From positions 1-25,347 of IMG/VR virus record IMGVR_UViG_3300031746_002794: a stretch of 25,347 nt of DNA. The stretch is one strand, 5' to 3'. Below the pieces are notes generated by a model. That model searched no databases. It was not told the origin of the DNA and saw nothing but the letters and a program-made list of their open reading frames with translations. Below are positions 2,312 to 22,464 of this stretch, in pieces; positions within the stretch are counted from its first letter, which is position 1, and every line of letters begins with the position of its first letter. The DNA is from a virus. The position numbers were made by a program, and so were the translations under genes.

Positions 2312-2845
2312 ATGAACGGACACGCAGAGCCGAAGACGCTTCCGACGACGTATGTAGTTAAGCGGGGAGAGCCCATAGATAAGTATATGGGCTACAAGAA
2401 GCTGACCTCCTATACCGCCAATGAGCAGCTCGGTGTTTGTGACTGCATCAGTTATTCCTATAGAGAAAGTTGCAAGCACCTCGTTTTTAAAGATTTGCTA
2501 GACCAGTTCAAGGTAAATGAGTTCGTGTTCTTTGGCAACGAGATCGGTGAGTGTCGGCCTCGGACAAAAGAAGATATTATAAAGCTGGCGGATTCCCTAA
2601 AAGAAGTCGTAAAAGCTCATTTTATGTACGATAGCATAGAGCTTGTGCAGCTAATTCAGAATCCGACGAATAGCGATCTTTATAATAGTGTTACTTTCGA
2701 AGGAGTGAGGGCGAGGAATGTTCTGGTTGTCGGGTACGTCAGGGGAATATTATTTAGAGTTATTCCAGTTGCAAAGAAGCAAGAAGCTGTTCCAGAAGAA
2801 AAGCCGAAGCAGGAGGGCGCGAAAAGTGTTCAAGTGGATTTTTAA
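2312..2845 (+). CDS. SWIM-type zinc-finger protein
   Basis: The protein carries C-D-C followed by C-K-H with eight residues between the second and third cysteine (C43, C45, C54, H56 from this start). This matches the SWIM signature CxCxnCxH, a zinc-binding fold that mediates DNA or protein contacts. The rest (177 residues in all) is unrecognised; the C-terminal 25 residues are Lys/Glu/Pro-rich and probably disordered. A GTG at 2303 is an alternative start three codons upstream; I prefer ATG 2312, with AGAGTG about six bases before it. It ends inside the reading frame of the next gene, so the two are probably translationally coupled. Confidence 0.7.
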   Translation: MNGHAEPKTLPTTYVVKRGEPIDKYMGYKKLTSYTANEQLGVCDCISYSYRESCKHLVFKDLLDQFKVNEFVFFGNEIGECRPRTKEDIIKLADSLKEVVKAHFMYDSIELVQLIQNPTNSDLYNSVTFEGVRARNVLVVGYVRGILFRVIPVAKKQEAVPEEKPKQEGAKSVQVDF

Positions 2846-3077
2846 CAGAAAGCCGAAGCCGGTTGTAAAGAGCTGGACAGACCGTAACGTTTTGTACTTC
2901 AAGTACAAGACCATTTACAATCATGACTTCGAGGTTTCGGTCTATCCGGACGTGAAAGTTCCCGGAACTTTTATTATTAAATCCAACGGTCTGGAAATTG
3001 GTCGAGTCGGAGTCTCAGATGATGGGTCTCGTTTGATTATTAGTGGTACGGTGGCCCCGCCAAGCTTTGTTAACTAA
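2826..3077 (+). CDS. Hypothetical small protein, 83 residues
   Basis: The frame is open further upstream, but a clear ribosome site AGGAGG (2811-2816) sits nine bases before the GTG at 2826, so I start here. The N-terminus is basic (VFKWIFNRKPKPVVKSW), followed by alternating beta-like segments (NVLYFKYKTIYNHDFEVSVYP, written only in part: strands near residues 22-40 and 48-60) ending in VAPPSFVN. It overlaps the end of the SWIM gene by 20 bases. No family recognised. Downstream lies the control region of the cold-shock gene. Confidence 0.6.
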   Translation: MFKWIFNRKPKPVVKSWTDRNVLYFKYKTIYNHDFEVSVYPDVKVPGTFIIKSNGLEIGRVGVSDDGSRLIISGTVAPPSFVN

Positions 3078-3093
3078 TTGTTGTAATTCCCTA

Positions 3094-3121
3094 TTGCATT
3101 TCAGGTTACTTCGAGTAAAAT
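3094..3121 (+). promoter_or_regulatory. Candidate promoter before the cold-shock gene
   Basis: TTGCAT (3094-3099), a 16-base spacer and TAAAAT (3116-3121, five of six matches to TATAAT) form a sigma70-like promoter with a weak -35. Transcription would begin near 3128, inside the left arm of the inverted repeat at 3121-3163. RNA from this promoter would then lack most of that arm. Confidence 0.4.
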
Positions 3122-3163
3122 CGCCTCCAGACGTGTTACAGTTCTCTCTAACTCTGGAGGCGA
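3121..3163 (+). promoter_or_regulatory. Perfect inverted repeat that hides the cold-shock gene ribosome site
   Basis: TCGCCTCCAGA (3121-3131) is the exact reverse complement of TCTGGAGGCGA (3153-3163). In RNA this gives an 11-pair stem with a 21-base loop. The whole ribosome site GGAGG (3156-3160) is paired, and the ATG follows at 3167. Such a stem would block initiation unless it is melted, or unless the transcript starts inside the left arm. Confidence 0.7.
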
Positions 3164-3166
3164 GTT

Positions 3167-3367
3167 ATGTCAGAAGGAACGATCAAGAAGGTCGTGTCGG
3201 AAAAGGGCTACGGGTTCATCACGACGGCAAAGGGCGATGTCTTTTTCCACTGCTCTGAACTTCAGGGCGTGGCGTTCACAGACATCAAGGCCGGTGATCG
3301 CGTCCAGTTTGAAGACGATCAAGGCCCCAAGGGCTCACGCGCCAAGAACGTTCGCGTAGTCGTGTAG
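3167..3367 (+). CDS. Cold-shock domain protein (CspA family)
   Basis: At 66 residues this is the normal size of a bacterial CspA protein, a five-stranded beta-barrel that binds single-stranded RNA or DNA and melts RNA structure. RNP1 (KGYGFITT, about residues 13-20) and RNP2 (VFFHCS, about 25-30) are both present, and the C-terminal G-x-x-A-x-N-V is typical. It starts at ATG 3167 with ribosome site GGAGG at 3156-3160. That site is locked in a perfect 11-pair inverted repeat, so regulation at translation is likely. Phages do carry Csp genes; whether this one is viral-adapted cannot be told here. Confidence 0.95.
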   Translation: MSEGTIKKVVSEKGYGFITTAKGDVFFHCSELQGVAFTDIKAGDRVQFEDDQGPKGSRAKNVRVVV

Positions 3368-3383
3368 TTTACGCGACGTACCC

Positions 3384-4037
3384 ATGTGGTGCCGCATGCA
3401 GGATGTCTCAGTCTACTGGGACGTTGACGGGGTTCTTCTGTCTTACGACAGAGGCCTTGAAAATGTCTCCGATAGGCAACTACGCCCCTACGCCAAGGAT
3501 CTCATACAGGCGCTGGAGTCTGTCGGCGTGACAAACTACGTGTGGAGCCGCGCTGGCGAGGGGAACGCTAGGGATGCGGCCAAGCGCGTTGGCCTTCCGG
3601 AAGACAGAGCGTTTGCCAAGCCGGAGTTCGAAACCCCAGACGTCATCGATTATCTTCCAGCACGCCCAGATCTTGTCATTGATGACAGGCCTGACGAAAC
3701 CATAATGATGTATCCCCACATTCTGGTCACGCCATATAAGGGTGGGGAAGACAATAATATCCTTGACATCATCCCTCAAATAAGGGATCATTTCGACGCG
3801 ATAGTTCAGGACATCATTTCCGAGATGAGAGTGTCCTTCAGGCGGAAGAAGAGCACACCGTCCAAGCTGAAAGCACAGAGGAAGAAGTACTACAGAAGGC
3901 ACAGAGCCTATTACAAGCGATACAAGAAGCGCTGGAAGAAGACCGCTCGCGTCAAGAGAGCGCAGAAGATGCGCAAGCGGTTTGCTAGCCGCTTTAAGAA
4001 GAAGATGGGGAAGTATAGAATGCGCGTCAGCATGTGA
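3384..4037 (+). CDS. HAD-like phosphatase domain with strongly basic C-terminal tail
   Basis: The N-terminal 150 residues look like a HAD-superfamily hydrolase: motif I YWDVDGVLL (nucleophile D13, general acid D15), a motif II-like VWSRAGEG (Ser), and a motif IV-like DLVIDDRPDE with paired Asp. HAD enzymes transfer phosphate through an Asp intermediate. The last 69 residues are roughly half Lys/Arg with Tyr and Phe, suggesting nucleic-acid binding. ATG 3396 is an equally good start; neither has a clear ribosome site. The stop codon (4035-4037) touches the end of the tnpB element, so the tail may have been cut by the insertion. Substrate unknown. Confidence 0.75.
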   Translation: MWCRMQDVSVYWDVDGVLLSYDRGLENVSDRQLRPYAKDLIQALESVGVTNYVWSRAGEGNARDAAKRVGLPEDRAFAKPEFETPDVIDYLPARPDLVIDDRPDETIMMYPHILVTPYKGGEDNNILDIIPQIRDHFDAIVQDIISEMRVSFRRKKSTPSKLKAQRKKYYRRHRAYYKRYKKRWKKTARVKRAQKMRKRFASRFKKKMGKYRMRVSM

Positions 4038-4180
4038 CTACTCCACGGGCTTTAAACCCGTGGCTTCTTGAGGCTTTCGCCCCGCGCCTTGTAGTCCCAA
4101 GGCGAGTATGTTTTTCGCCGCGTTCAGGTCCCGGTCGATTGATAATCCGCAGCACGGGCAGGCATACGTGCGATCCGAAA
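4034..4180 (-). ncRNA. Candidate omega/reRNA (TnpB guide RNA), extent approximate
   Basis: In characterised TnpB elements the guide RNA overlaps the 3' end of tnpB, runs through the right-end hairpin, and carries as guide the bases just beyond the element. Here that would place the scaffold over the last part of tnpB and the 4043-4063 hairpin. The guide would read into the end of the HAD gene on the minus strand. Only the hairpin is seen directly; the RNA is inferred from the family. Confidence 0.3.
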
Positions 4181-5177
4181 GCGGCATCTTCTGACGATGC
4201 CCGCACTGGCTGCACGTCTGGCTCGTGTACGCTGGATTGACTCTGACATGCTGGCGACCGGCCCATTCTGCCTTGTACGCCAGCAAGCCGTCGAACATAC
4301 TCCACGCGGCGTCTGAAATGCTCTTTGACAAGCAGCGGTTGTGAAGCATACGATTAACTGATAGGTCTTCGACGGCAATGAAACCGAAGCGGTTGACGAT
4401 CTTACGGCTGTGTTGATGCGCGAAGTTCTCCCGTCTCCACGCGATGCGCTCGTGAACGCGGGCAACCGCCTTTACGTGCTTTCTTCTTTCCGGGGTTCCC
4501 TTAGCAAGTTTTGCGTGCTGGCGCTGAACGTTCACAAGAGCCTCTTCTTCCTCACGGAAGAATCTTGGATTTTCGATCTTATCGCCGTTACTTAGCGTGG
4601 CAAATGTCGCCAGACCAACATCTATACCTGTTTTCTCTTTGGACTTTTTGAGTTTCTTTGGCGCATCCACTTCGCAGGAAAACGTTACGTACCACTTGTC
4701 TGTACGGGATCTCTTGATAGTTACCGTCTTTGGAATGCCCTCAAGTTTTCGGTGGAGTATAACCGGAACAACTCCGATTTTGCTTAGGTGAAGAAACTTG
4801 CCGTGCAACGCACACCCGCTCGGCGCTTGCGGATAGGTGAAACTATCATAGCGGTCAATTCCGTGGAATCGCGGGTATCCGGGTTTCTCCCCCGCCTTGC
4901 AACGGCGAAAGAAGGCTTTGAATGCAAGGTCTACTCTGACAGCGGCGTTCTGTAGAACTTGGCTGTGTACCAGAGCAAGGTCTGTGTTTTTTTCTTTCAG
5001 GTCAGGAATAACCGCGTGTTGATCGTACAGAGACACAGACTTCTTATCCTTTTTCCAAGCGGAGGTTCTTTGCTCGACAAGATAGTTGTAGAGCCAGCAA
5101 CACGCGGAGAGAGCCTTACGCATCCGCGTGCTCTGTGCACGGGTCGGATAGATCCGGTATTTGAATGTTTTACGCAT
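4038..5177 (-). CDS. tnpB: TnpB, RNA-guided nuclease of an IS200/IS605-type element
   Basis: At 379 residues this is normal for TnpB (OrfB). The N-terminus (MRKTFKYRIYPT) is typical. RuvC motifs are GIDVG (D186), VEDLS (E270) and DRDLNAAKNI (D348/D350), and a zinc ribbon is present: CSQC (322-325) and CPCC (340-343). All catalytic residues appear intact, so the nuclease could be active. TnpB proteins use a guide RNA from the element's right end to cut DNA beside a short target motif, and are ancestral to Cas12. A promoter with TTGTAA and TAGAAT 17 bases apart puts the start of transcription about one base before the ATG. It is the only minus-strand gene in the window and clearly an insertion. 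Confidence 0.95.
   Translation of the reverse strand: MRKTFKYRIYPTRAQSTRMRKALSACCWLYNYLVEQRTSAWKKDKKSVSLYDQHAVIPDLKEKNTDLALVHSQVLQNAAVRVDLAFKAFFRRCKAGEKPGYPRFHGIDRYDSFTYPQAPSGCALHGKFLHLSKIGVVPVILHRKLEGIPKTVTIKRSRTDKWYVTFSCEVDAPKKLKKSKEKTGIDVGLATFATLSNGDKIENPRFFREEEEALVNVQRQHAKLAKGTPERRKHVKAVARVHERIAWRRENFAHQHSRKIVNRFGFIAVEDLSVNRMLHNRCLSKSISDAAWSMFDGLLAYKAEWAGRQHVRVNPAYTSQTCSQCGHRQKMPLSDRTYACPCCGLSIDRDLNAAKNILALGLQGAGRKPQEATGLKPVE
4043..4063 (-). repeat. Right-end hairpin of the tnpB element
   Basis: CCACGGG (4043-4049) and CCCGTGG (4057-4063) form a perfect seven-pair stem with a seven-base loop. It lies inside the last codons of tnpB, as usual for the right-end palindrome recognised by the transposase and included in the guide RNA. 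Confidence 0.75.
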
Positions 5178-5184
5178 AATTAGT

Positions 5185-5213
5185 ATTCTAGCAAAAAAGA
5201 ACTTGTTTTACAA
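5185..5213 (-). promoter_or_regulatory. tnpB promoter, near-leaderless
   Basis: On the minus strand TTGTAA (5213-5208) and TAGAAT (5190-5185) are separated by exactly 17 bases, a good sigma70-type arrangement. The expected start is near 5178, with the ATG at 5177, so the message would have almost no leader. Consistent with this, no ribosome site precedes the ATG. Confidence 0.6.
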
Positions 5214-5250
5214 CCCAGTTTAAAGGAAAATTTGTTCGGGTTAAAATTTG

Positions 5251-6502: not shown

Positions 6503-6515
6503 GGAACTGAGTTCC
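6503..6515 (+). repeat. GGAACTKAGTTCC stem-loop, copy 1
   Basis: GGAAC-TGA-GTTCC, two bases after the stop at 6500 and before the ribosome site of the next gene. It is one of four near-identical copies in the window, each just downstream of a stop codon. No T-run follows. Confidence 0.7.
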
Positions 6516-6942: not shown

Positions 6943-7224
6943 ATGCAGGGCTTCGAGAGAATAAATATTCTCTTAGAGTCGCTCCTCACCGAAGGTGAGC
7001 TGAACTGGAATTCCCTCAAATATCTGGCCAATCTGATGTCGCAGATTGGAAAAGACCTAAAGCAGTCCGTCATCGAGAAGAGCGCGAAAGACGTTCTTTG
7101 GCAGGCGGAAAAGATCGCCAGCTATTCAAACGACATCAAACAAATGCTGAAGAACGCCGTTCCGCCCGTTATTACTTCTCCACAGACGGTGGAGAAGAAG
7201 GCGGTTTCAAATGAGTTGCACTAG
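6943..7224 (+). CDS. Small helical protein with head-protein-like N-terminal leader, 93 residues
   Basis: An almost entirely helical protein. Its N-terminus (I7-N8-I9-L10-L11, then L15-T16-E17-G18) aligns in register with the N-termini of the genes at 7727, 10248 and 10994. L-T-E|G fits the cleavage pattern of T4 gp21 prohead protease, so it may be an internal head protein cut after E17. A middle segment (VLWQAEKI...NDIKQML, about residues 51-70) resembles part of the 10248 protein. The start codon follows CGAGGG. An 18-base palindrome (6956-6973) lies just inside the gene. It overlaps the next gene by 14 bases. Function otherwise unknown. Confidence 0.75.
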   Translation: MQGFERINILLESLLTEGELNWNSLKYLANLMSQIGKDLKQSVIEKSAKDVLWQAEKIASYSNDIKQMLKNAVPPVITSPQTVEKKAVSNELH

Positions 7225-10217: not shown

Positions 10218-10230
10218 GGAACTTAGTTCC
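10218..10230 (+). repeat. GGAACTKAGTTCC stem-loop, copy 2
   Basis: GGAAC-TTA-GTTCC, nine bases after the stop at 10208; the stem gains one C-G pair (10217/10231). The ribosome site of the next gene follows at 10235-10239. No T-run. Confidence 0.7.
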
Positions 10231-10247: not shown

Positions 10248-10994
10248 ATGGGGCCTCTCAAGAATATTGACGAAATGCTGGCGAAGCTTCAGGAAGCCGA
10301 TTGGGGAAAATCTTTGAAATTTGTTTCGGATCAACTCGCTCTGCGCAGTAAAGACCTTGCTGATATTGCTGACAAGGTTATCTGGCAGGGAGATAATATG
10401 GACGGGCGTTCGGCTCGTCAAGCACGCGATATACAACAGAGTATTGACGAGTTGGCTACGAGATTAAGAAAGGAACTTGCAGGTTTTTCCGAGTCAAAGC
10501 TTCAAGATGCGACGGACTATGGCCCATACGAGGCAACTGACGCTCAGCTAAAAGCAGAAAAAGAAATTGAGAAGCAGGGTTTCCGGTTTTCGAATTGGAT
10601 TCCAGCTCAAGATCCTGACGATGGAGATCACGGTATAATGGTTATGTCCAAACGAGGCATAACACGTTTTGGGAAAGAATATAGAGAAATTGATCTGGAT
10701 GGAAGTGTAAACGAGAACATTACATCTAAAGAAGAAGTAGACGAAGCTAAAATTTCCATGCCACAAGTTATTGACCAGATTACACGTAGCTTGGACGAGT
10801 TAGCACAAGCTGAAGACCCGCACTCTTCTGTGGACGCCCTTAGAGATATCATTTCCGCCGTAGCGGGTGGCCTACTCAAGCTCGGCGAAAAGAAATCCGC
10901 CGCCGCGCTTTCCAAGATTGCCATGGAAATTCAGCCTTCCGAGGAACCCGCAGTTGCAACGTCCAAGGAATCGACCAGTTTCACCAATATATAA
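10248..10994 (+). CDS. Candidate internal head protein with leader and repeated domain, 248 residues
   Basis: ATG 10248 follows AGGAG (10235-10239). The N-terminus I7-D8-E9-M10-L11-A12-K13-L14-Q15-E16-A17 is the clearest copy of the shared leader, and L-Q-E|A matches the T4 gp21 protease pattern, predicting cleavage after E16. Residues about 20-75 are helical and resemble the 6943 protein (VIWQGDN...DIQQSIDEL). Residues 98-157 are a copy of the repeated domain of the 8841 protein. The C-terminus is helical, ending in a short Ser/Thr tail. The stop overlaps the next start (TAATG), indicating coupling. No named family. Confidence 0.8.
   Translation: MGPLKNIDEMLAKLQEADWGKSLKFVSDQLALRSKDLADIADKVIWQGDNMDGRSARQARDIQQSIDELATRLRKELAGFSESKLQDATDYGPYEATDAQLKAEKEIEKQGFRFSNWIPAQDPDDGDHGIMVMSKRGITRFGKEYREIDLDGSVNENITSKEEVDEAKISMPQVIDQITRSLDELAQAEDPHSSVDALRDIISAVAGGLLKLGEKKSAAALSKIAMEIQPSEEPAVATSKESTSFTNI
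10266..10292 (+). repeat. Leader-coding direct repeat, copy 3
   Basis: It lies at the start of the 10248 gene and is identical over 27 bases to 9699-9725. Here the encoded leader is truly N-terminal. Confidence 0.8.
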
Positions 10995-13397: not shown

Positions 13398-13423
13398 AAA
13401 GCGGAACTGAGTTCCGCTTTTTT
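13398..13423 (+). terminator. Intrinsic terminator built on the GGAACTGAGTTCC stem-loop (copy 3)
   Basis: AAAGCGGAAC (13398-13407), TGA loop and GTTCCGCTTT (13411-13420) form a ten-pair stem ending in six consecutive T (13418-13423). The core GGAACTGAGTTCC (13403-13415) is the third copy of the recurring stem-loop, six bases after the stop at 13396. Confidence 0.85.
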
Positions 13424-13451: not shown

Positions 13452-14270
13452 ATGGAAAACGAGAATTTACCTGACGAAAATTTAGAGGATGAGGAAGAGG
13501 AGAAGGAAAATACGACCCCTTCTCCGACGCCTTCCCCCGCGCCAGCTCCTGCGGCTCCTCCGGAGTCTAAGGGCCAAGCTCTCATAGAGGGCTCTAAGGC
13601 TTCTGGCGAGGTAAAGAATCGCCTTACCTACAAACAGCGATTTGAGCGGCGAGAGCGGATCAAGGAGTTCCTTGATAAGGGGATTACGAACGCAGCTAAG
13701 ATTGCCGGACTTCTTGGCGTCACAGACGTGACTGTCAGAAAAGATATCGCAATTATTACCAAGGAGAGAAAGACCGGGCTGACAAGAGAATCTGCTCCGG
13801 AACATGTTGGAACGCTGCTCGGGCAGATGGAAGAGATCATCAAGAATTCAACGATGGATTATCTTAATATCACGGGGAACGACCCAAAGAGTAACGCGGC
13901 CAAGGCGTCTTTGTTGCAGACGGCTCTTCGAGCAATCATGGCCAAGAGCCAGCTTCTAATGCAGACTGGGGTTGTTCCTCCTGATATAACGACCATGGAC
14001 AAGATTATCGAAGCCCAGATGATTGAATCCAAGGCTAAGGCGATATTGGACCCGAAGATAGCTGAAGTCGTGACGAACGCTGACAGCCGCAGAAAGGTTC
14101 TGGATGTTGTCGAAAAGCTGAGAGGTGTTAGCCCAGAAGTAGCCGCTGTCGTCATGGAGAGGCTGGACGCGAAGGAAGAGCAGGACAAGATCGACAAGGA
14201 GCATCCAACACCCGAGCCGCCTAAAGAAACACCTCAACCGCCGTCCCCGAGTGAAAAGCCAGTTGCATGA
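13452..14270 (+). CDS. Candidate terminase small subunit (TerS)
   Basis: The 272-residue protein sits immediately before the large terminase and overlaps its start (ATGA), the usual TerS position. An acidic Pro/Ala-rich N-terminus leads to a basic helix (KQRFERRERIKEFL) and a helix-turn-helix (ITNAAKIAGLLGVTDVTVRKDI), the kind of DNA-binding fold TerS proteins use to recognise packaging sites. A long helical middle could be the oligomerisation region, and the tail is Pro-rich. The open frame extends upstream into the terminator, so I start at ATG 13452; GTG 13437 is an alternative and neither has a clear ribosome site. The assignment rests on position plus the HTH. Confidence 0.7.
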   Translation: MENENLPDENLEDEEEEKENTTPSPTPSPAPAPAAPPESKGQALIEGSKASGEVKNRLTYKQRFERRERIKEFLDKGITNAAKIAGLLGVTDVTVRKDIAIITKERKTGLTRESAPEHVGTLLGQMEEIIKNSTMDYLNITGNDPKSNAAKASLLQTALRAIMAKSQLLMQTGVVPPDITTMDKIIEAQMIESKAKAILDPKIAEVVTNADSRRKVLDVVEKLRGVSPEVAAVVMERLDAKEEQDKIDKEHPTPEPPKETPQPPSPSEKPVA

Positions 14271-17200
14271 TTATCAAGAACGTAGAAGGCCGGTGGCAGA
14301 CCGTTCGGACGGACTCGGAATCCATCGAAGGTCTGTTCGGTGCTATCGACAAGATGTCCGTGGAAGAGCGGAAGCTTCTGCGGATGGTTTTCTCACAGTT
14401 GTGCAAGAACGAGACAACGGTCATCAGGACACTACAGAATCTGGAATATGAAGAGCCGCCCGCTTCTCCCGAAAAGTTCTTGACGGACCCGTACTATTTT
14501 GGTGAAGTTGGGAAAGGACTTTATCCGTGGGTAAAGGAAGATATTGCGAGACTCTTTAACCAAGGATTCGAAGAAATCGTTCTAACGGGAGCACAGAGAA
14601 CTGGAAAGGACACCTTTGCGCACATTGCCGTAAGCTACCTTCTTCACCTGTTGCTATGTTTGAAAGATCCAGCCACCAGCTACGGGCTGGCAAAAGGAAG
14701 CATGATTCACACTGTGTTGCTGTCGGCAACGCAAGAAATGGCCAAGGAAATCGTGTTTGGCGGTTTGATTGAGAAAATAAAACAATCGCCGTGGTTCTCG
14801 AAGTTTGGCAAGTCGATGAAAGTCCTTTCGGAAGAAATCCGGTTTCCGAAGGGACTCGTGGTGAAGGGCGCGGAATCCACCGACTTAGGCGTGATCGGTT
14901 TGTCAACGTGCGTGACGGGAGATACCAGAATAAACACGCCGCTCGGTGAAAAAACAATCGATTATCTTCTGATAAAATACGGCAAGGAGAAGTTTCCCAT
15001 ATTTAACTATTCCGGCGATATTGTGGAATCCGATCTAGCGTTTATTACAGAGATGGGGGTGAAGCCCGTCTACGCTCTAAAGCTCACAGATGGGTTTTCT
15101 TTAAGAATTACAGGGGATCACAAAATACTGATAGATCCAAAATTGATGCAGTATAAATCGCTGTCCGAGCTGTCCATTGGGGATTCCGTGTGTTGCGAGC
15201 TAGACCTGAAAGTCGTTTTTAGAAAGATAGAAGAAAAGATGCTGGCAGAGGACTGCAAAGTATATGATCTGACTGCAAGAAAGAATCCAAATTTTATTGC
15301 CAATAGAACATTTGTGCATAACTGTGCGGTAATTATTGACGAGGCCAATATCGGTCGAAAAGTAAAAGCGGTTCACGAAAGGAACCAGCTTACAGATAGA
15401 ACTGAAGCAATTTATCAAGCAGTCAAACGGCGCATTAGAACTACATTCATGAAGCAGGGGCGTCCGCCGACGCTTCTGATGACCATCGGGTCACGTCGCT
15501 ATCCGTCCGACTTCGTGGAAAGAAGAATTCGTGAATTGCAGAACGACAAGAGTGCACTCTGTAAAGATCTCTCATTGTGGCAAGCGAGAGGCTTGGAAAA
15601 TTTCAGCCCGAAGATGTTTAAAGTTCTCGTTGGTAACGACACGATCCCGTCACGAGTTCTTCCAGAAGGGGAGCAGCCTCCGCAGGGCATGCAAATTATT
15701 TCTGTTCCGTATGATTTTTACAAGGACTTTGTGGATGACTGTGAAGGGTGCTTTACTGGGGATACGCAAATATCTTTGCTAGATGGCAGTGAAGTCGCTA
15801 TTCAAGATTTGGTTGGAAGAAAAGAATTCTGGACGTATTCTTATACATCAGATGGAAAACTTCACTCCGGACGAGGTCATTCAGCAAGGCTTACGCGCAA
15901 GGATGCACCTATAGTTGAGGTACTTCTAGACAACGGAGAGAAAGTAAGGTGTACGCCAAATCACAGGTTCATGCTTCGCGACGGAACCTATAAAGAGGCG
16001 GGTTTTCTTCAAGCTGGCGATAGCCTAATGCCTTTATACCGAAAAAGAGACAGGCATGGGTACGAACTAGTTAAGTCTAACGTTGGGGGCAAGTGGGTTT
16101 ATACGCATCGCGTCGTGTCACGGGAAGCGTTTTTTAACGGTGGGCAAATTCCAGAAGACTTGGTTATCCATCATCGAAACTTTAAGATAATTGACAACAG
16201 CCCGGAAAATCTTGCGCCACTAACGACTGAAGCGCATATTAATATTCATAAGTCAAATTTGATCAGATCAATTCACAGTCCCTACGCAAAACTGAAGTCC
16301 GTTTTTACAAGAAAGCGAAAAGTCTCTGATGATCCAAGTTATCGAAAGATGTTGTTAAAAAATTTAAAAATTGGTCTCGATAAATATGTTGGATCGGACG
16401 CACATCGTGCTACGGCCTCAAAGATCGGAAAGTTTTACGGATTCGGATCTAATAATCCAAACATTCTTAGGGCAAGAAGCGAAAACGGAACGAGGAATAT
16501 TACTTTGTTAAATCTGTCTTCAAATAATCCGTGCTACAAAGAAGAAAATCGTAAAAAGGCTTCTGAAAGGCTAAAGCGCATGCCAATGGAGGCGCGTCTT
16601 CGTTCGATACAAACGGTCATACATAATAGATTTCACAAAGGGCCAAAAGAGGGGTGTCTTCGCTGTGCAAATCCAAAACGCAGACGTCCGAAAAACATTC
16701 CTCCAATGTCACCATTTGAGTGCAGCCAGCGAGGGGCTCACAAGTATTTTCATGAAGGCCCATACGAAACCTGTCAGAAATGCCACGGGCCGAAACCGCT
16801 TAAGATAAAGTTTTCTTCACCAGCAGAGGCTGGCCGATTCAATATGCACAAGCGCTGGAAGCATCCCACGTCTTTTGAAACTTGTGGGATTTGCCACAGA
16901 AAACAAAATGCAAAGTACAGTACGTGTGTTCATGAAAAGTGGCATTCGGGAGAATACGAAAATTGCAAGAGTTGTTTTCCTGTAAATAATCACAAGGTTG
17001 TTTCTGCTACGCCAGCTGGGGTTGCGGACGTTTATGATATTACAGTAGACACGTACAATAACTTTTCTTTATCTTCCGGGATTGTAGTACATAACAGTCT
17101 TCGGGATATCGGTGGAATTTCAATTCGCACACTTTCACCGTACTTCAGTAACCAGAAGATGTTACGCGAGATGTTCGATGAAGGACGGTCGCATCCGTGT

Positions 17201-18763
17201 CGCACGGTGGAGTGGAGAATTGACGAGCACTTGGATATCCAATGGGAAAAACTTACTCAGGTTGTTGGCGGAAAAATGCAACCGATATTGTTTCCAGACA
17301 AGGCGAGATGCATCGCGATTGACCTTGGAAGAACGAAGAACCCCACTGGTTTTGTGTGCGGGTTCGTCAAGGGCTTCAAGACGGTCGAAAGGAAGCAGCC
17401 AGATGGAAGAATTTACCACGAGAACCAGCCATACATAGTGGTAGAGTTTACACTTCGCATAAGCCCGGTGGCAGGCGAAGAGGTGAAGTTCTGGCAGGTT
17501 AGAGAACTTCTATTTAAGTTTATCGAGCACGGAATTCCTATAAAGTACGCGGTCATGGACCATTGGCAGTGTCTAACTGGTGATACACGAATAATTCTTC
17601 TTAGTGGTAAAGAGATCCCGATCAAAGACTTAGAGTCTCTATATCCAAATAATACCCCGTTCTGGGTTTATTCTTATGATACCAAGAATGGAAAAGTTGT
17701 TCCCGGAAAAGCGAGTGCGGTTGGTAAAACAGGAGAGAAAGTTCCAATAGTAGAGGTGACTTTAGATAACGGAGAGAAAATACGTTGTACAAAAAACCAT
17801 CCGTTTCTTCTTTCAAACGGAACGTATAAGAACGCTGAGGGGCTTAAAGAAAACGATTCACTCATGGCGGTTTACAGAAGAATAGACGCTCAAAAAGTTG
17901 TTAGCGTCCGCGATGCCGGGTTTGAAGACGTTTACGATATTTCTGTAGATACCTATCATAATTTTGCGGTCGTTTCTGGGCAAGAGAGGCTTCTCGAAAA
18001 GCAAGGGCTCAATTCGGGTGTTTTTGTACATAATTCGGACGATTTCGCCCAGCTTCTAACAGAACAAGGAATTGAGACGACTAAAATAAAAACAGACATC
18101 AATGCATACGAAACTTTAAAAAATGCTGTTTACGAGGGAAGAATTCGGACGTATCCGTACAAGCCGTTGCTCGATGAGTTGTCGATGCTTGAGTACGACG
18201 CCAAGAAGATGAAGGTGGATACAGCCGTCGAGGATTTCGGCAACATCCACCACGACGTAGCGGACTCTGTCTGCCTTCTGGTGAACCGGCTTTCCAAGGG
18301 GTTCCGAGCGCAGGACTTCTCGCCCGTGTCACCCGAGACGGACTACGTGAAACCACAGGGCGAGAATGGGCCGTATCAGACAGTAGGGATTGGTGAGACA
18401 CCCTTCGAGCTTCTTCCGGGGGAGAAATCAGCCATGCAAGAGAATGCACAGCCCGAGCCCACACAGGCTTTCCCCTCCTACGGTTTGATGTTTAACGGAA
18501 AAGAGACGGGGTGGGGGGACGAGGTTAATCCAAAGACGCCGCAGGGGTATGTTCCAATATCAAAACAGCCTATTATTCGGCTTGAGGTTTTAGCGCAGGA
18601 ATTTTGCAGCCGAGTCGGGATTGACAAACTACCCACCGTGACGGTAGAATCTATAAAAGCATTTCTGTTTGAGAAACAACTGACTGACCATCGTTACGTA
18701 AACGCGATAAAATCGCACATAGAGCGGGTCTATGTCGATAAACTGGGAGGCAAAACAATATGA
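14267..18763 (+). CDS. terL: Terminase large subunit (TerL) interrupted by three inteins
   Basis: TerL is the packaging motor: an ATPase drives DNA into the prohead through the portal and an RNase H-like nuclease cuts it. The 1498-residue precursor shows Walker A GAQRTGKDT (108-116, K114), Walker B VIIDEA (355-360), and nuclease Asp residues in AIDLG (D1019), VMDHW (D1098) and HHDVADS (D1330/D1333). Three in-frame inteins with Cys first residues and His-Asn ends occupy 215-352, 495-943 and 1102-1256. Removing them leaves about 756 residues, somewhat longer than T4 gp17. The start overlaps the TerS stop, so translation is probably coupled. The unspliced protein should be inactive, because inteins separate the catalytic motifs. 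Assignment is certain. Confidence 0.95.
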   Translation: MIIKNVEGRWQTVRTDSESIEGLFGAIDKMSVEERKLLRMVFSQLCKNETTVIRTLQNLEYEEPPASPEKFLTDPYYFGEVGKGLYPWVKEDIARLFNQGFEEIVLTGAQRTGKDTFAHIAVSYLLHLLLCLKDPATSYGLAKGSMIHTVLLSATQEMAKEIVFGGLIEKIKQSPWFSKFGKSMKVLSEEIRFPKGLVVKGAESTDLGVIGLSTCVTGDTRINTPLGEKTIDYLLIKYGKEKFPIFNYSGDIVESDLAFITEMGVKPVYALKLTDGFSLRITGDHKILIDPKLMQYKSLSELSIGDSVCCELDLKVVFRKIEEKMLAEDCKVYDLTARKNPNFIANRTFVHNCAVIIDEANIGRKVKAVHERNQLTDRTEAIYQAVKRRIRTTFMKQGRPPTLLMTIGSRRYPSDFVERRIRELQNDKSALCKDLSLWQARGLENFSPKMFKVLVGNDTIPSRVLPEGEQPPQGMQIISVPYDFYKDFVDDCEGCFTGDTQISLLDGSEVAIQDLVGRKEFWTYSYTSDGKLHSGRGHSARLTRKDAPIVEVLLDNGEKVRCTPNHRFMLRDGTYKEAGFLQAGDSLMPLYRKRDRHGYELVKSNVGGKWVYTHRVVSREAFFNGGQIPEDLVIHHRNFKIIDNSPENLAPLTTEAHINIHKSNLIRSIHSPYAKLKSVFTRKRKVSDDPSYRKMLLKNLKIGLDKYVGSDAHRATASKIGKFYGFGSNNPNILRARSENGTRNITLLNLSSNNPCYKEENRKKASERLKRMPMEARLRSIQTVIHNRFHKGPKEGCLRCANPKRRRPKNIPPMSPFECSQRGAHKYFHEGPYETCQKCHGPKPLKIKFSSPAEAGRFNMHKRWKHPTSFETCGICHRKQNAKYSTCVHEKWHSGEYENCKSCFPVNNHKVVSATPAGVADVYDITVDTYNNFSLSSGIVVHNSLRDIGGISIRTLSPYFSNQKMLREMFDEGRSHPCRTVEWRIDEHLDIQWEKLTQVVGGKMQPILFPDKARCIAIDLGRTKNPTGFVCGFVKGFKTVERKQPDGRIYHENQPYIVVEFTLRISPVAGEEVKFWQVRELLFKFIEHGIPIKYAVMDHWQCLTGDTRIILLSGKEIPIKDLESLYPNNTPFWVYSYDTKNGKVVPGKASAVGKTGEKVPIVEVTLDNGEKIRCTKNHPFLLSNGTYKNAEGLKENDSLMAVYRRIDAQKVVSVRDAGFEDVYDISVDTYHNFAVVSGQERLLEKQGLNSGVFVHNSDDFAQLLTEQGIETTKIKTDINAYETLKNAVYEGRIRTYPYKPLLDELSMLEYDAKKMKVDTAVEDFGNIHHDVADSVCLLVNRLSKGFRAQDFSPVSPETDYVKPQGENGPYQTVGIGETPFELLPGEKSAMQENAQPEPTQAFPSYGLMFNGKETGWGDEVNPKTPQGYVPISKQPIIRLEVLAQEFCSRVGIDKLPTVTVESIKAFLFEKQLTDHRYVNAIKSHIERVYVDKLGGKTI
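14909..15322 (+). other. TerL intein 1, mini-intein of 138 residues
   Basis: It begins CVTGDT (C215) and ends FVHN (N352), with Cys as the first residue after it. Other splicing blocks are ITGDHKILID (block B-like His) and VYDLTARKNPNF (block F-like). No endonuclease domain is present. It is inserted exactly before the Walker B strand (GLST^CAVIIDEA). Its sequence is clearly different from inteins 2-4, implying a separate origin, and it looks richer in AT than the flanking gene. Splicing activity is predicted from intact terminal residues, not shown. Confidence 0.92.
15749..17095 (+). other. TerL intein 2 with HNH endonuclease and four zinc-knuckle repeats, 449 residues
   Basis: It starts CFTGDT (C495) and ends VVHN (N943), followed by Ser. 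Block B is CTPNHRFML and block F is VYDITVDTYNNF. In between lies an HNH homing endonuclease (VIHHRNF...NSPENLAPL...H, about 16165-16250). Then, over about 16620-16990, come four units of the form H-x-x-[FW]-[HK]-x-x-x-x-E-x-C-x-x-C, likely zinc-binding DNA contacts. The endonuclease looks intact, so the intein could still home. It interrupts TerL between the ATPase and nuclease parts (VDDCEG^SLRDIGG). Confidence 0.93.
17570..18034 (+). other. TerL intein 3, mini-intein of 155 residues
   Basis: It starts CLTGDT (C1102) and ends FVHN (N1256), followed by Ser. Block B is CTKNHPFLL and block F is VYDISVDTYHNF. It resembles inteins 2 and 4 closely (WVYSYD, VEVTLDNGEKIRC) but lacks the endonuclease, so it probably derives from such an intein by deletion. 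About 14 extra residues (GQERLLEKQGLNSG) sit between block F and the terminal block. It splits the nuclease site at VMDHWQ^SDDFAQLL, four residues after D1098. Confidence 0.92.
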
Positions 18764-19671: not shown

Positions 19672-19685
19672 GTAAGGTGACAGAA

Positions 19686-22412
19686 ATGGGAATGATCGAC
19701 ACGGTTCGCAATCGCATCAAGTCTGTTTTTAGCCGCGAACGGACCAACATCGAGAGGGCGACCGACCTGTCTGTCGGCGCACAGCCTGTCGGATTTGACA
19801 CTGCATCTATTTATGGCCGCTACGGCATCGAGCCTCTCGTAGACTATCTCCGCATCGAGCAGGAACTCGTTTCGCGGTACATGGATTATAATGAGATGTG
19901 CGTGTACCCGGAACTAAGTGCCGCGCTGGAGTGCTACGCGGACGAGTCCTGCCAGTTCGACATCCTGACGGGAAGAACCGTTTGGGTCGAATCGGACGAC
20001 GCCTTCGTTAAGCATGTTCTACAGGAACTTATTGACAAGGGTCTTCAGCTTGATGAAGAGATCTGGGGGCTAAGTCACGAGCTTTGCAAATACGGAAATT
20101 GTTTTTCCGAATTGCTTTGTACGGGTGAAGGCGTGATTGGTTTGAACGCCCTTCCTCCGGAGACAATCCGCAGATACGAAAAGGGCAAGGGCATCCTCGT
20201 CGGATACGCCCAAGACCCACGCGGCGTGTTCGGCGTCACGGTTGAAGACGTCGAAAAGGCTCTTAGCGGACATGATCCGACTGCGACTGGAATGGCCTAT
20301 TTTGAGCCGTGGCAGATTCTTAATATGCGGCTGATGGGTCTTCAGCGGCAAGCGCCTTACGGCCACAGCATTTTAGAGAGCGCAAGATGGTTGTGGAGAA
20401 GGCTGCTTTTGCTCGAAGACTCTGCGCTTTTGTATAGGCTGACCCGGAGCCCGCAGAAGTGGCTCTTCTACATCGACGTCGGAAAGCTTCCGCCGAATCA
20501 GGCGCTCGGTTATCTTCGCAGAATTAAAAACGAATTCACGAAGAGTAAATTTGTTAACGAACGCGGGTGCTTGACGGGAGATACCTGTGTTGAGACTTTG
20601 TCTGGCAAGATTAAAACGATGAAGGAGCTTGCGGACGAAGGAAAGGAAACTTGGATTTATTCATACGACATAAAGAAGAACAAGGTTGTTCCTGCGCTTG
20701 CTAGCGCCCCAAGAAAAACCTCCAGTAACGTTGAAGTCTGGCGAGTTGTTTTAGATAACGGAGCGGTTGTTCGCTGTACTCCGGATCACCGATTCCTCCT
20801 TAGGGATGGAACATGGAGTGAAGCGAAAGACTTGAAGCGTGGAAGTTCTATGATGCCGTTCCATCTTATGCGCGGGAGTAAAGGAACATACGGATACGCA
20901 AGAGTTAAGCACGTCGGACGTGGACAATGGCAATTTGCTCATCAGATGGTTGCCGAAGAAGTACTTGACCCTAATTATAAAGAAAAAGGACTGGTTGTTC
21001 ATCATCTCGATTCAAAAACAAACAATGATCCGCGATTCCTTGAACTCTTAGACCCAAGAACACACACTTTGGTGCATTCTGACAATCTACTTCCGCGTCG
21101 TGTCATGGGTTGGAAGCGCAAGGTGCGCGAAGACGCCAATTTCAGATTTGAGCTTGGGCAGAGAATGATTCGTAACAATAGAAAGTGGATGCAATCTACA
21201 CGAGGAGCCAGAAAGCAGTTGATGGAAGTCCTTGAAAGCAAGGTTCGGTCAAACCCGGATTGGAGCCTTCGGGACTATGCGGATTGGATGAATGTGTCTG
21301 AAGATACTACGCGTCTTTTTAAATCTCTGAGATCTTCAACGAAGAAGATTTCTAAAGAAACAATTTTTCAATGGATTAAGAGCTGCGGGTATACCGGTGT
21401 GCACGACTTCAAGAACGACTGTGCGAGGAAGCCGAGAAAGTCTAAAAAGTTAGTCAAAGTCGAAAATCACAAAGTTGTTGAAGTTTGTTTTGACGGTTAC
21501 GCAGACGTCTACGATCTGACGATTGATGGTACAGAGAATTTCGCTCTTACCGCAGGGATCTTCGCGCATAATTCGCTCGATATGCGTTACAGCCCATTAG
21601 CTTCTGACGAAAATTTATTTCTCCCTGTTGTAGATGGAAAGAGAACGACGGAAGTCGAATTGATGGCGACACCTGAATGGCAGGTGATGGACGACATCAA
21701 TTACTTCCGTGACAAGTTGTTTACTGCCATTCGGATTCCGAAAGCTTATCTGGCTGCGGAAGAGGTTTCACGGTCAAGGACGCTTTCACTCGAAGACGTC
21801 AGATTTGCCCGTTCCATCATGCGTATTCAGCGTGAGCTGAAGAACGGAATCAAGCGGCTCTGCAAAGTGCATCTGGCCGCGATGAACGTTGATCCCGAAA
21901 AAGTTAACTTTGAAGTTTTCATGACTGTTCCTTCATGGGCTTACGAAATGGCACAGATCGAAGTCCGTTCGGCCCGCGCCGATTTCGCCGAGAAGGTCGG
22001 CGACCATCTTTCCGAGAGAGCCATTCTTCGTCTCGTGTTCGGATTCTCGGACGAAGAAATTAATGCACTCCGTAAAGAGCGCAAAGAGGAGATGAGAGAA
22101 GCGGCGGAAGCCGAAGGCGGCGGCGGAGCAGAGCCCGAGAAGAAGGCTCCCGCGAAGACGGAAGGCTCTATTATGGATCTTCCACGGCTATCCCGTGTCG
22201 CCGCGAAAGACGAAGAAAGAGAAGACAAGAACATGCGTATTCTAAAAGAGAAAATGGACGAGATGCTTGGACAGAACAAGGACATCGCCGAGAGTCTTGA
22301 CCAGAGCAAAGACTTCATGAAGAATTTGAAGACGTCAATTATGTTCCAACCTTATCGAGGGCAGCAAAGGGTTGTCAAGTCACTCGGTATGGGTCCTCGA
22401 AGAAACGCATAG
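19686..22412 (+). CDS. Portal protein (T4 gp20-like) with an intein
   Basis: The portal is the dodecameric ring at the unique capsid vertex through which TerL pumps DNA. Extein segments typical of gp20-like portals include the N-terminal RYGIEPLVDYLRIEQELVSRY region, DMRYSPLASDENLFLPVV, and WQVMDDINYFRDKLFTAIRIPKAYL before a helical C-terminal domain with an acidic coiled-coil tail. One intein interrupts the gene; without it about 573 residues remain, close to T4 gp20. I choose ATG 19686, with TAAGGTGA about six bases before; GTG 19677 is an in-frame alternative and ATG 19692 another. A stem-loop and strong terminator follow. Confidence 0.92.
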   Translation: MGMIDTVRNRIKSVFSRERTNIERATDLSVGAQPVGFDTASIYGRYGIEPLVDYLRIEQELVSRYMDYNEMCVYPELSAALECYADESCQFDILTGRTVWVESDDAFVKHVLQELIDKGLQLDEEIWGLSHELCKYGNCFSELLCTGEGVIGLNALPPETIRRYEKGKGILVGYAQDPRGVFGVTVEDVEKALSGHDPTATGMAYFEPWQILNMRLMGLQRQAPYGHSILESARWLWRRLLLLEDSALLYRLTRSPQKWLFYIDVGKLPPNQALGYLRRIKNEFTKSKFVNERGCLTGDTCVETLSGKIKTMKELADEGKETWIYSYDIKKNKVVPALASAPRKTSSNVEVWRVVLDNGAVVRCTPDHRFLLRDGTWSEAKDLKRGSSMMPFHLMRGSKGTYGYARVKHVGRGQWQFAHQMVAEEVLDPNYKEKGLVVHHLDSKTNNDPRFLELLDPRTHTLVHSDNLLPRRVMGWKRKVREDANFRFELGQRMIRNNRKWMQSTRGARKQLMEVLESKVRSNPDWSLRDYADWMNVSEDTTRLFKSLRSSTKKISKETIFQWIKSCGYTGVHDFKNDCARKPRKSKKLVKVENHKVVEVCFDGYADVYDLTIDGTENFALTAGIFAHNSLDMRYSPLASDENLFLPVVDGKRTTEVELMATPEWQVMDDINYFRDKLFTAIRIPKAYLAAEEVSRSRTLSLEDVRFARSIMRIQRELKNGIKRLCKVHLAAMNVDPEKVNFEVFMTVPSWAYEMAQIEVRSARADFAEKVGDHLSERAILRLVFGFSDEEINALRKERKEEMREAAEAEGGGGAEPEKKAPAKTEGSIMDLPRLSRVAAKDEEREDKNMRILKEKMDEMLGQNKDIAESLDQSKDFMKNLKTSIMFQPYRGQQRVVKSLGMGPRRNA
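20568..21572 (+). other. Portal intein with HNH endonuclease, 335 residues
   Basis: It starts CLTGDT and ends FAHN, followed by Ser (VNERG^SLDMRYSP). Block B is CTPDHRFLL and block F is VYDLTIDGTENF. The endonuclease core VVHHLDSKTNNDPRFLELL matches HNH, followed by a helix-turn-helix-like region (RDYADWMNVSEDTTRLFKSL). The splicing domain resembles TerL inteins 2 and 3 (WIYSYD, LDNGAVVRCTPDHRFLLRDG). Terminal residues are intact, so splicing is expected. It sits in a conserved segment of the portal, as inteins usually do. Confidence 0.93.
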
Positions 22413-22422
22413 TTAAAAAATT

Positions 22423-22435
22423 GGAACTTAGTTCC
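22423..22435 (+). repeat. GGAACTKAGTTCC stem-loop, copy 4
   Basis: GGAAC-TTA-GTTCC, ten bases after the portal stop at 22412 and immediately before a separate intrinsic terminator. Confidence 0.7.
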
Positions 22436-22436
22436 G

Positions 22437-22464
22437 AAACCCCCGAATAAAATCGGGGGTTTTT
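22437..22464 (+). terminator. Intrinsic terminator after the portal gene
   Basis: CCCCCGA (22440-22446), loop ATAAAA and TCGGGGG (22453-22459) form a perfect seven-pair stem, extended by AAA/TTT, followed by TTTTTGTTTTT. It closes the packaging operon. Confidence 0.9.

Follow-up and report, generated by a model that had tools for sequence, protein, structure and literature searches.

A predicted RNA hairpin lock on the ribosome-binding site of a phage cold-shock gene and its possible bypass by a local promoter

The csp gene and its genomic context

The stretch of DNA analyzed here (the window) is the 25,347-base viral record IMGVR_UViG_3300031746_002794, covered from positions 1 to 25,347. 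Its + strand encodes, at 3167..3367, a protein of 66 aa with the RNP1 and RNP2 motifs KGYGFI and VFFH, which matches PHROG 729 (cold shock protein) and recovers the Pfam CSD family as a full cold-shock domain (PF00313, E=4.1e-19, residues 3-64). Judged by these sequence features it is a genuine cold-shock-domain gene, hereinafter csp. The top-scoring matches recovered from viral contigs, phages and ~85,000 genomes share only ~45-52% identity with it and, hence, csp itself gives no pointer to the host. The flanking genes, both taken from the list of open reading frames and both on the + strand, recovered no Pfam or PHROG matches. The upstream gene (2718..3077) is the candidate source of read-through RNA, while the downstream gene (3384..4037), which starts 17 nt past csp, codes for a product with a basic C-terminus and a DxDG motif that suggests a HAD-like fold. 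The 89 nt gap ahead of csp is the only sizeable one between 139 and 4037, the other gene spacings ranging from -128 to 23 nt. The upstream genes lie on the same strand, and a terminator scan found no terminator-like site from 1286 to csp. At the extreme end of the gene after csp an IS200/IS605-type tnpB (4038-5177, - strand; within window positions 4018-5230) has been inserted, and the tnpB end carries the hairpin CCACGGGCTTTAAACCCGTGG.

The window also contains portal and terminase genes, each interrupted by intein-like insertions: in both the terminase large subunit (14267-18763) and the portal gene (19677-22412) these are in-frame, with intein-like junctions and matches to HNH endonucleases. 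The portal protein is at most ~37% identical, over partial length, to portals of described phages, with the best matches coming from a Microcystis phage and Flavobacterium phages. Searches with this protein recovered two contigs that, at 99.6-99.9% identity, belong to the same phage; their overlap with the window starts at 10,289 and 11,159 and proceeds rightwards only, so that both stop short of the csp region. No relatives spanning the csp locus emerged from searches with the neighboring proteins and the portal protein, and a DNA search of a phage collection returned no near relatives of the csp region.

A further feature of this phage is the palindrome GGAACTKAGTTCC, which is present in four exact copies (6503-6515, 10218-10230, 13403-13415 and 22423-22435), each 3-11 nt past a stop codon, against an expectation of 0.04 with one mismatch allowed. 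Two more exact copies are found in the contig that extends the phage rightwards (L105), and a longer form, CCGGAACTKAGTTCCG, recurs in other viral contigs, where 22 stretches contain it and one 57-kb contig accounts for four. We take GGAACTKAGTTCC to be a repeated gene-end hairpin.

A perfect inverted repeat encloses the Shine-Dalgarno sequence of csp

The csp leader contains a perfect 11-bp inverted repeat on the + strand, with the left arm TCGCCTCCAGA at 3121..3131, the loop CGTGTTACAGTTCTCTCTAAC at 3132..3152 and the right arm TCTGGAGGCGA at 3153..3163. The arms are complementary at 11/11 positions, lie 21 nt apart and form the longest perfect inverted repeat of the window. The Shine-Dalgarno GGAGG (3156-3160), 6 nt from the ATG at 3167, falls entirely within the right arm and would thus pair with the left one. 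The predicted RNA fold adds an inner GUUA/UAAC helix in the loop that stacks on the arms, bringing the hairpin alone to -22 to -23 kcal/mol; the fold of 3094-3200 has a z-score of -3.35. For comparison, the duplex of the Shine-Dalgarno with the anti-Shine-Dalgarno amounts to -9.3 kcal/mol.

To express the strength of such locks we used an opening cost, defined as the ensemble energy with the Shine-Dalgarno bases forced open minus that of the free ensemble. For csp this is 16.3 kcal/mol, the highest of the 24 starts in the window. The same measure peaks at 15.6 among 112 genes of phage T4 and at 13.7 among 83 genes with a strong Shine-Dalgarno from other viral contigs, all below csp. Likewise, it does not exceed 8.3 in 20 csp genes of viral contigs and has a median of 3.5 and a maximum of 11.0 in 80 bacterial csp genes, which rules out the idea that csp leaders are locked in general. 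The exceptions are the csp genes of certain Streptomyces phages (see below) and a few from Thermoleophilia/Actinomycetota with 7-8 bp versions. The prior claim that a perfect 11-pair inverted repeat locks the csp ribosome site is borne out at the level of structure prediction.

The arm length by itself is unremarkable: when the whole window is dinucleotide-shuffled, 18% of the shuffles contain an inverted repeat of at least 11 bp. However, the chance of such a repeat sitting on the Shine-Dalgarno of a gene is ~0.002 (a rough estimate from that shuffle rate), and none of 500 leaders with a shuffled upstream part attained 16.3 kcal/mol. The same position and cost were matched by none of the 112 T4 genes or the 80 bacterial csp genes. 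Thus, the predicted hairpin is beyond chance in its placement on the Shine-Dalgarno and its strength, and we regard an inverted repeat without any role as very unlikely.

The window has a second strong lock at 7175-7211, where a 9-bp hairpin (CTTCTCCAC/GTGGAGAAG) located 13 nt upstream of the ATG at 7211 yields an opening cost of ~12 kcal/mol. No -10-like hexamer is positioned to truncate this hairpin, indicating that locks exist also on genes with no visible local promoter.

A candidate promoter at the left arm and a proposed bypass of the lock

Immediately ahead of the hairpin on the + strand we found a -35-like hexamer, TTGCAT (3094..3099; 3/6 matches to TTGACA), separated by 16 nt from a -10-like hexamer, TAAAAT (3116..3121; 5/6 matches to TATAAT), with a predicted transcript start at ~3128. 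Both are weak: together they have 8/12 bases of a consensus that is sigma70-like and may not be that of the host, and a kilobase contains on average 3.6 sites that match as well. The pair is the sole site of its class with a predicted start in 3000-3200; nevertheless, such a start falls within any 31-nt stretch with a chance of 5.4%, and the csp -10 by itself is not significant. The first-pass annotation had placed this -10 over the left arm. This holds for a weak predicted promoter and for one base, the last of TAAAAT (3121) being the first of the arm.

The 12-mer CGARTAAAATCG was considered as a possible promoter motif. Its three copies (3112-3123, 22444-22455 and one in the rightward extension contig L105) are all intergenic and on the + strand; one adjoins the csp -10, and the others lie in the loop of a terminator and in a hairpin that follows another gene. 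With one mismatch allowed, finding it twice in the window is no rare event (8/100 shuffles); hence, we do not take it as evidence.

Several T4 genes provide a precedent for a leader of this kind. The locked-gene section of a T4 review (PMC3014915) describes the Shine-Dalgarno and/or AUG of e, soc, 49 and I-TevI as lying in a helix, names e, 49, I-TevI and I-TevII as locked and implicates segB. Long transcripts of gene e are silenced about 100-fold, while transcripts from late promoters that are devoid of the 5' portion, including the locally started e RNA, are well translated (PMC3014915).

By analogy, we propose that the csp hairpin is an RNA lock on translation that is bypassed by a local promoter, a reading we put at about an even chance and regard as the best-supported explanation. 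RNA entering from the upstream genes would hold both arms and fold, the Shine-Dalgarno would be hidden and csp would stay silent. In contrast, transcription from a local promoter at 3094-3121 would begin at ~3128, within the left arm; the resulting RNA would retain just ~4 of the 11 bases of that arm and leave the Shine-Dalgarno accessible, so that csp output would track the local promoter instead of read-through. The arms, the enclosed Shine-Dalgarno, the opening cost and its loss on truncation are computed directly: in silico, RNAs that start at or before 3100 have an opening cost of 16-17 kcal/mol, which falls to 0.5-2.5 for those begun at 3127-3132. On account of this fall we consider the T4 gene e-like reading anatomically sound. 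Thus, of the gene e-like switch claimed in the first-pass annotation, the geometry and the effect of truncation at the predicted start stand in silico, with a lock tighter than that of gene e, while the activity of the promoter, read-through, an effect on translation and timing are steps that we infer. The solitary sizeable gap ahead of csp and the -10-like hexamers of other strongly locked genes (see below) favor the proposal; the low promoter match and locks such as that at 7211, which lack a visible local promoter, weigh against it.

Alternative explanations

The main rival, which we consider unlikely, retains the hairpin as a lock but has it released in trans or by processing, be it by a phage or host protein, an antisense RNA or cleavage in the left arm or loop. 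The lock is indeed tight enough that some release is needed. The protein could even be Csp itself, acting on the pyrimidine-rich stretch GUUCUCUCU in the loop, an autoregulation that has no other support. Shorter Shine-Dalgarno hairpins are also seen at some bacterial csp genes with no obvious phage timing (L160 and L159, together with L200, L199 and L202, which are csp genes of the same genomes or related csp genes). However, csp leaders are generally unlocked, none of the 80 bacterial csp genes reaching 12 kcal/mol or more; no binding sites, antisense genes or processing motifs were identified, and release in trans would make the truncating -10 coincidental. It is decidedly unlikely that the hairpin is instead a constant brake, with csp expression simply being low, or a boundary or stability element, such as the end of the upstream message or an RNase barrier, with no switch at all. 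Its position 44 nt past the stop codon of the upstream gene and the many gene-end hairpins of this phage are compatible with such a role; however, an element of that kind need not include the Shine-Dalgarno, there is no U-run after the hairpin on the + strand, and an unreleased lock of 16 kcal/mol would nearly abolish the use of a good Shine-Dalgarno.

Two further readings fit the hairpin poorly. On the - strand the sequence reads ...TCTGGAGGCGATTTTACTCG, i.e., the stem followed by TTTTA, and with tnpB oriented leftward downstream of csp this could in principle be a terminator of leftward transcription. We consider this weak and highly improbable: there are only four Ts, the arms are 21 nt apart and the site is absent from the terminator scan, whereas short loops and long T runs characterize the clear terminators of the phage (6026, 13398 and 22437); moreover, the leftward gene is part of an inserted element. 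The least probable of all is an RNA thermometer, which the first-pass annotation had entertained and which would suit a cold-shock family member with its Shine-Dalgarno within a hairpin. This reading fails since the Shine-Dalgarno is predicted to be paired throughout 4 to 80 C. Opening on warming would also run counter to what is expected of a cold-shock gene; moreover, Rfam returned no thermometer matches, and up to E = 1 the window has no match to the cspA thermoregulator RF01766.

Locked genes in T4 and other phages

We then compared the csp lock with predicted locks elsewhere. Among the 112 T4 genes four that the review names as locked or implicates rank near the top, with opening costs of 13.6 for e, 11.5 for I-TevII, 10.6 for gene 49 and 9.4 for segB. 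The cost for soc, likewise a documented case, is just 2.8, which shows that this measure misses some locked genes. Conversely, it adds regB, nrdC.8, denV and modB as predicted locked genes, which are absent from the locked-gene section of the T4 review (PMC3014915). These four (L106, L107) have a sigma70-like -10 that lies within the loop or shares bases with the left arm, that of regB being TATAAT, and would by prediction follow the logic of gene e, albeit early.

Several Streptomyces phages have csp-like genes with comparable leaders. In JustBecause and Kela, as in the window, a perfect repeat, here of 12 bp (GTTTCTCTCCGG/CCGGAGAGAAAC), lies over the Shine-Dalgarno; in Frankenweenie, Quantum, Kradal and Satis it is found in a shorter repeat with a CTCCGG/CCGGAG core. 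In each of these six phages the -10-like TAGRTT immediately precedes the left arm. These phages are unrelated to that of the window and have Streptomyces as their host, and homology between the leaders is not demonstrable: alignment misplaces the hairpin and shows none, and we do not claim common ancestry. The csp lock is the strongest among 80 genes in JustBecause (over a 40-kb stretch), and in Frankenweenie it is the eighth of 79, with another gene at 20.7. Since several other genes are locked too, the lock is not specific to csp in the Streptomyces phages. For instance, gene 196 of Frankenweenie (L248 5437-5811) has its Shine-Dalgarno in a long near-perfect hairpin costing 20.7 kcal/mol, with TATCCT at the left arm.

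When T4 was pooled with two Streptomyces phages, 12 of the 18 strongly locked genes had a -10-like hexamer (at least 4/6 matches) that would truncate the left arm, versus ~5 expected from shifted windows; this test (nominal P ~2e-5) is exploratory, with thresholds set post hoc and the two Streptomyces phages related to each other. When viral contigs were searched for the arms of the csp hairpin, 79 and 12 stretches were obtained. In two unrelated viral contigs (L090 4890-4928 and L092 9747-9780) the arms CGCCTCCAG/CTGGAGGCG lie over a well-spaced Shine-Dalgarno and ATG that precede ORFs of 135 aa and 158 aa, respectively. These two resemble real locked starts, as perhaps does a third (L272), but none of them sits on a csp gene or is evidently related to the csp leader of the window. 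On the whole, locked genes appear not to be rare in phages.

Significance and comparison with known systems

It is possible, albeit short of probable, that unrelated phage lineages have independently placed csp and other genes under promoter-containing Shine-Dalgarno locks, which would constitute a general device, early or late, for uncoupling one gene from operon read-through beyond the few documented T4 genes. We found no earlier report of a Shine-Dalgarno lock on this class of genes. If the proposal holds, the switch that T4 uses for lysis, recombination and homing genes would extend to an RNA-chaperone gene in an unrelated phage. It would also furnish a searchable rule for any phage genome, namely a strong Shine-Dalgarno lock with a -10 at its left arm, which is testable with simple reporters. 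The interest of the locus thus lies chiefly in the gene controlled and in the hint that phages may commonly combine a lock with an embedded promoter.

The csp leader shares with the cspA thermoregulator and other csp leaders the predicted presence of a structure governing a cold-shock gene, but it differs from the cspA thermoregulator in being short and in having a single rigid hairpin with no predicted temperature response. With respect to T4, the csp stem is longer than that of gene e and perfect (11 versus about 9 bp), and its promoter-like hexamer is sigma70-like rather than the T4 late promoter TATAAATA. It precedes a cold-shock gene, in a phage unrelated to T4, and the switch there is proposed from the sequence, with the promoter and all the functional steps inferred. 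In its layout the csp leader nevertheless parallels the T4 gene e-type leaders: the left arm lies upstream, the Shine-Dalgarno resides in the right arm, the upstream genes are on the same strand, and a promoter-like hexamer is placed at the left arm such that a locally started RNA would lack that arm.
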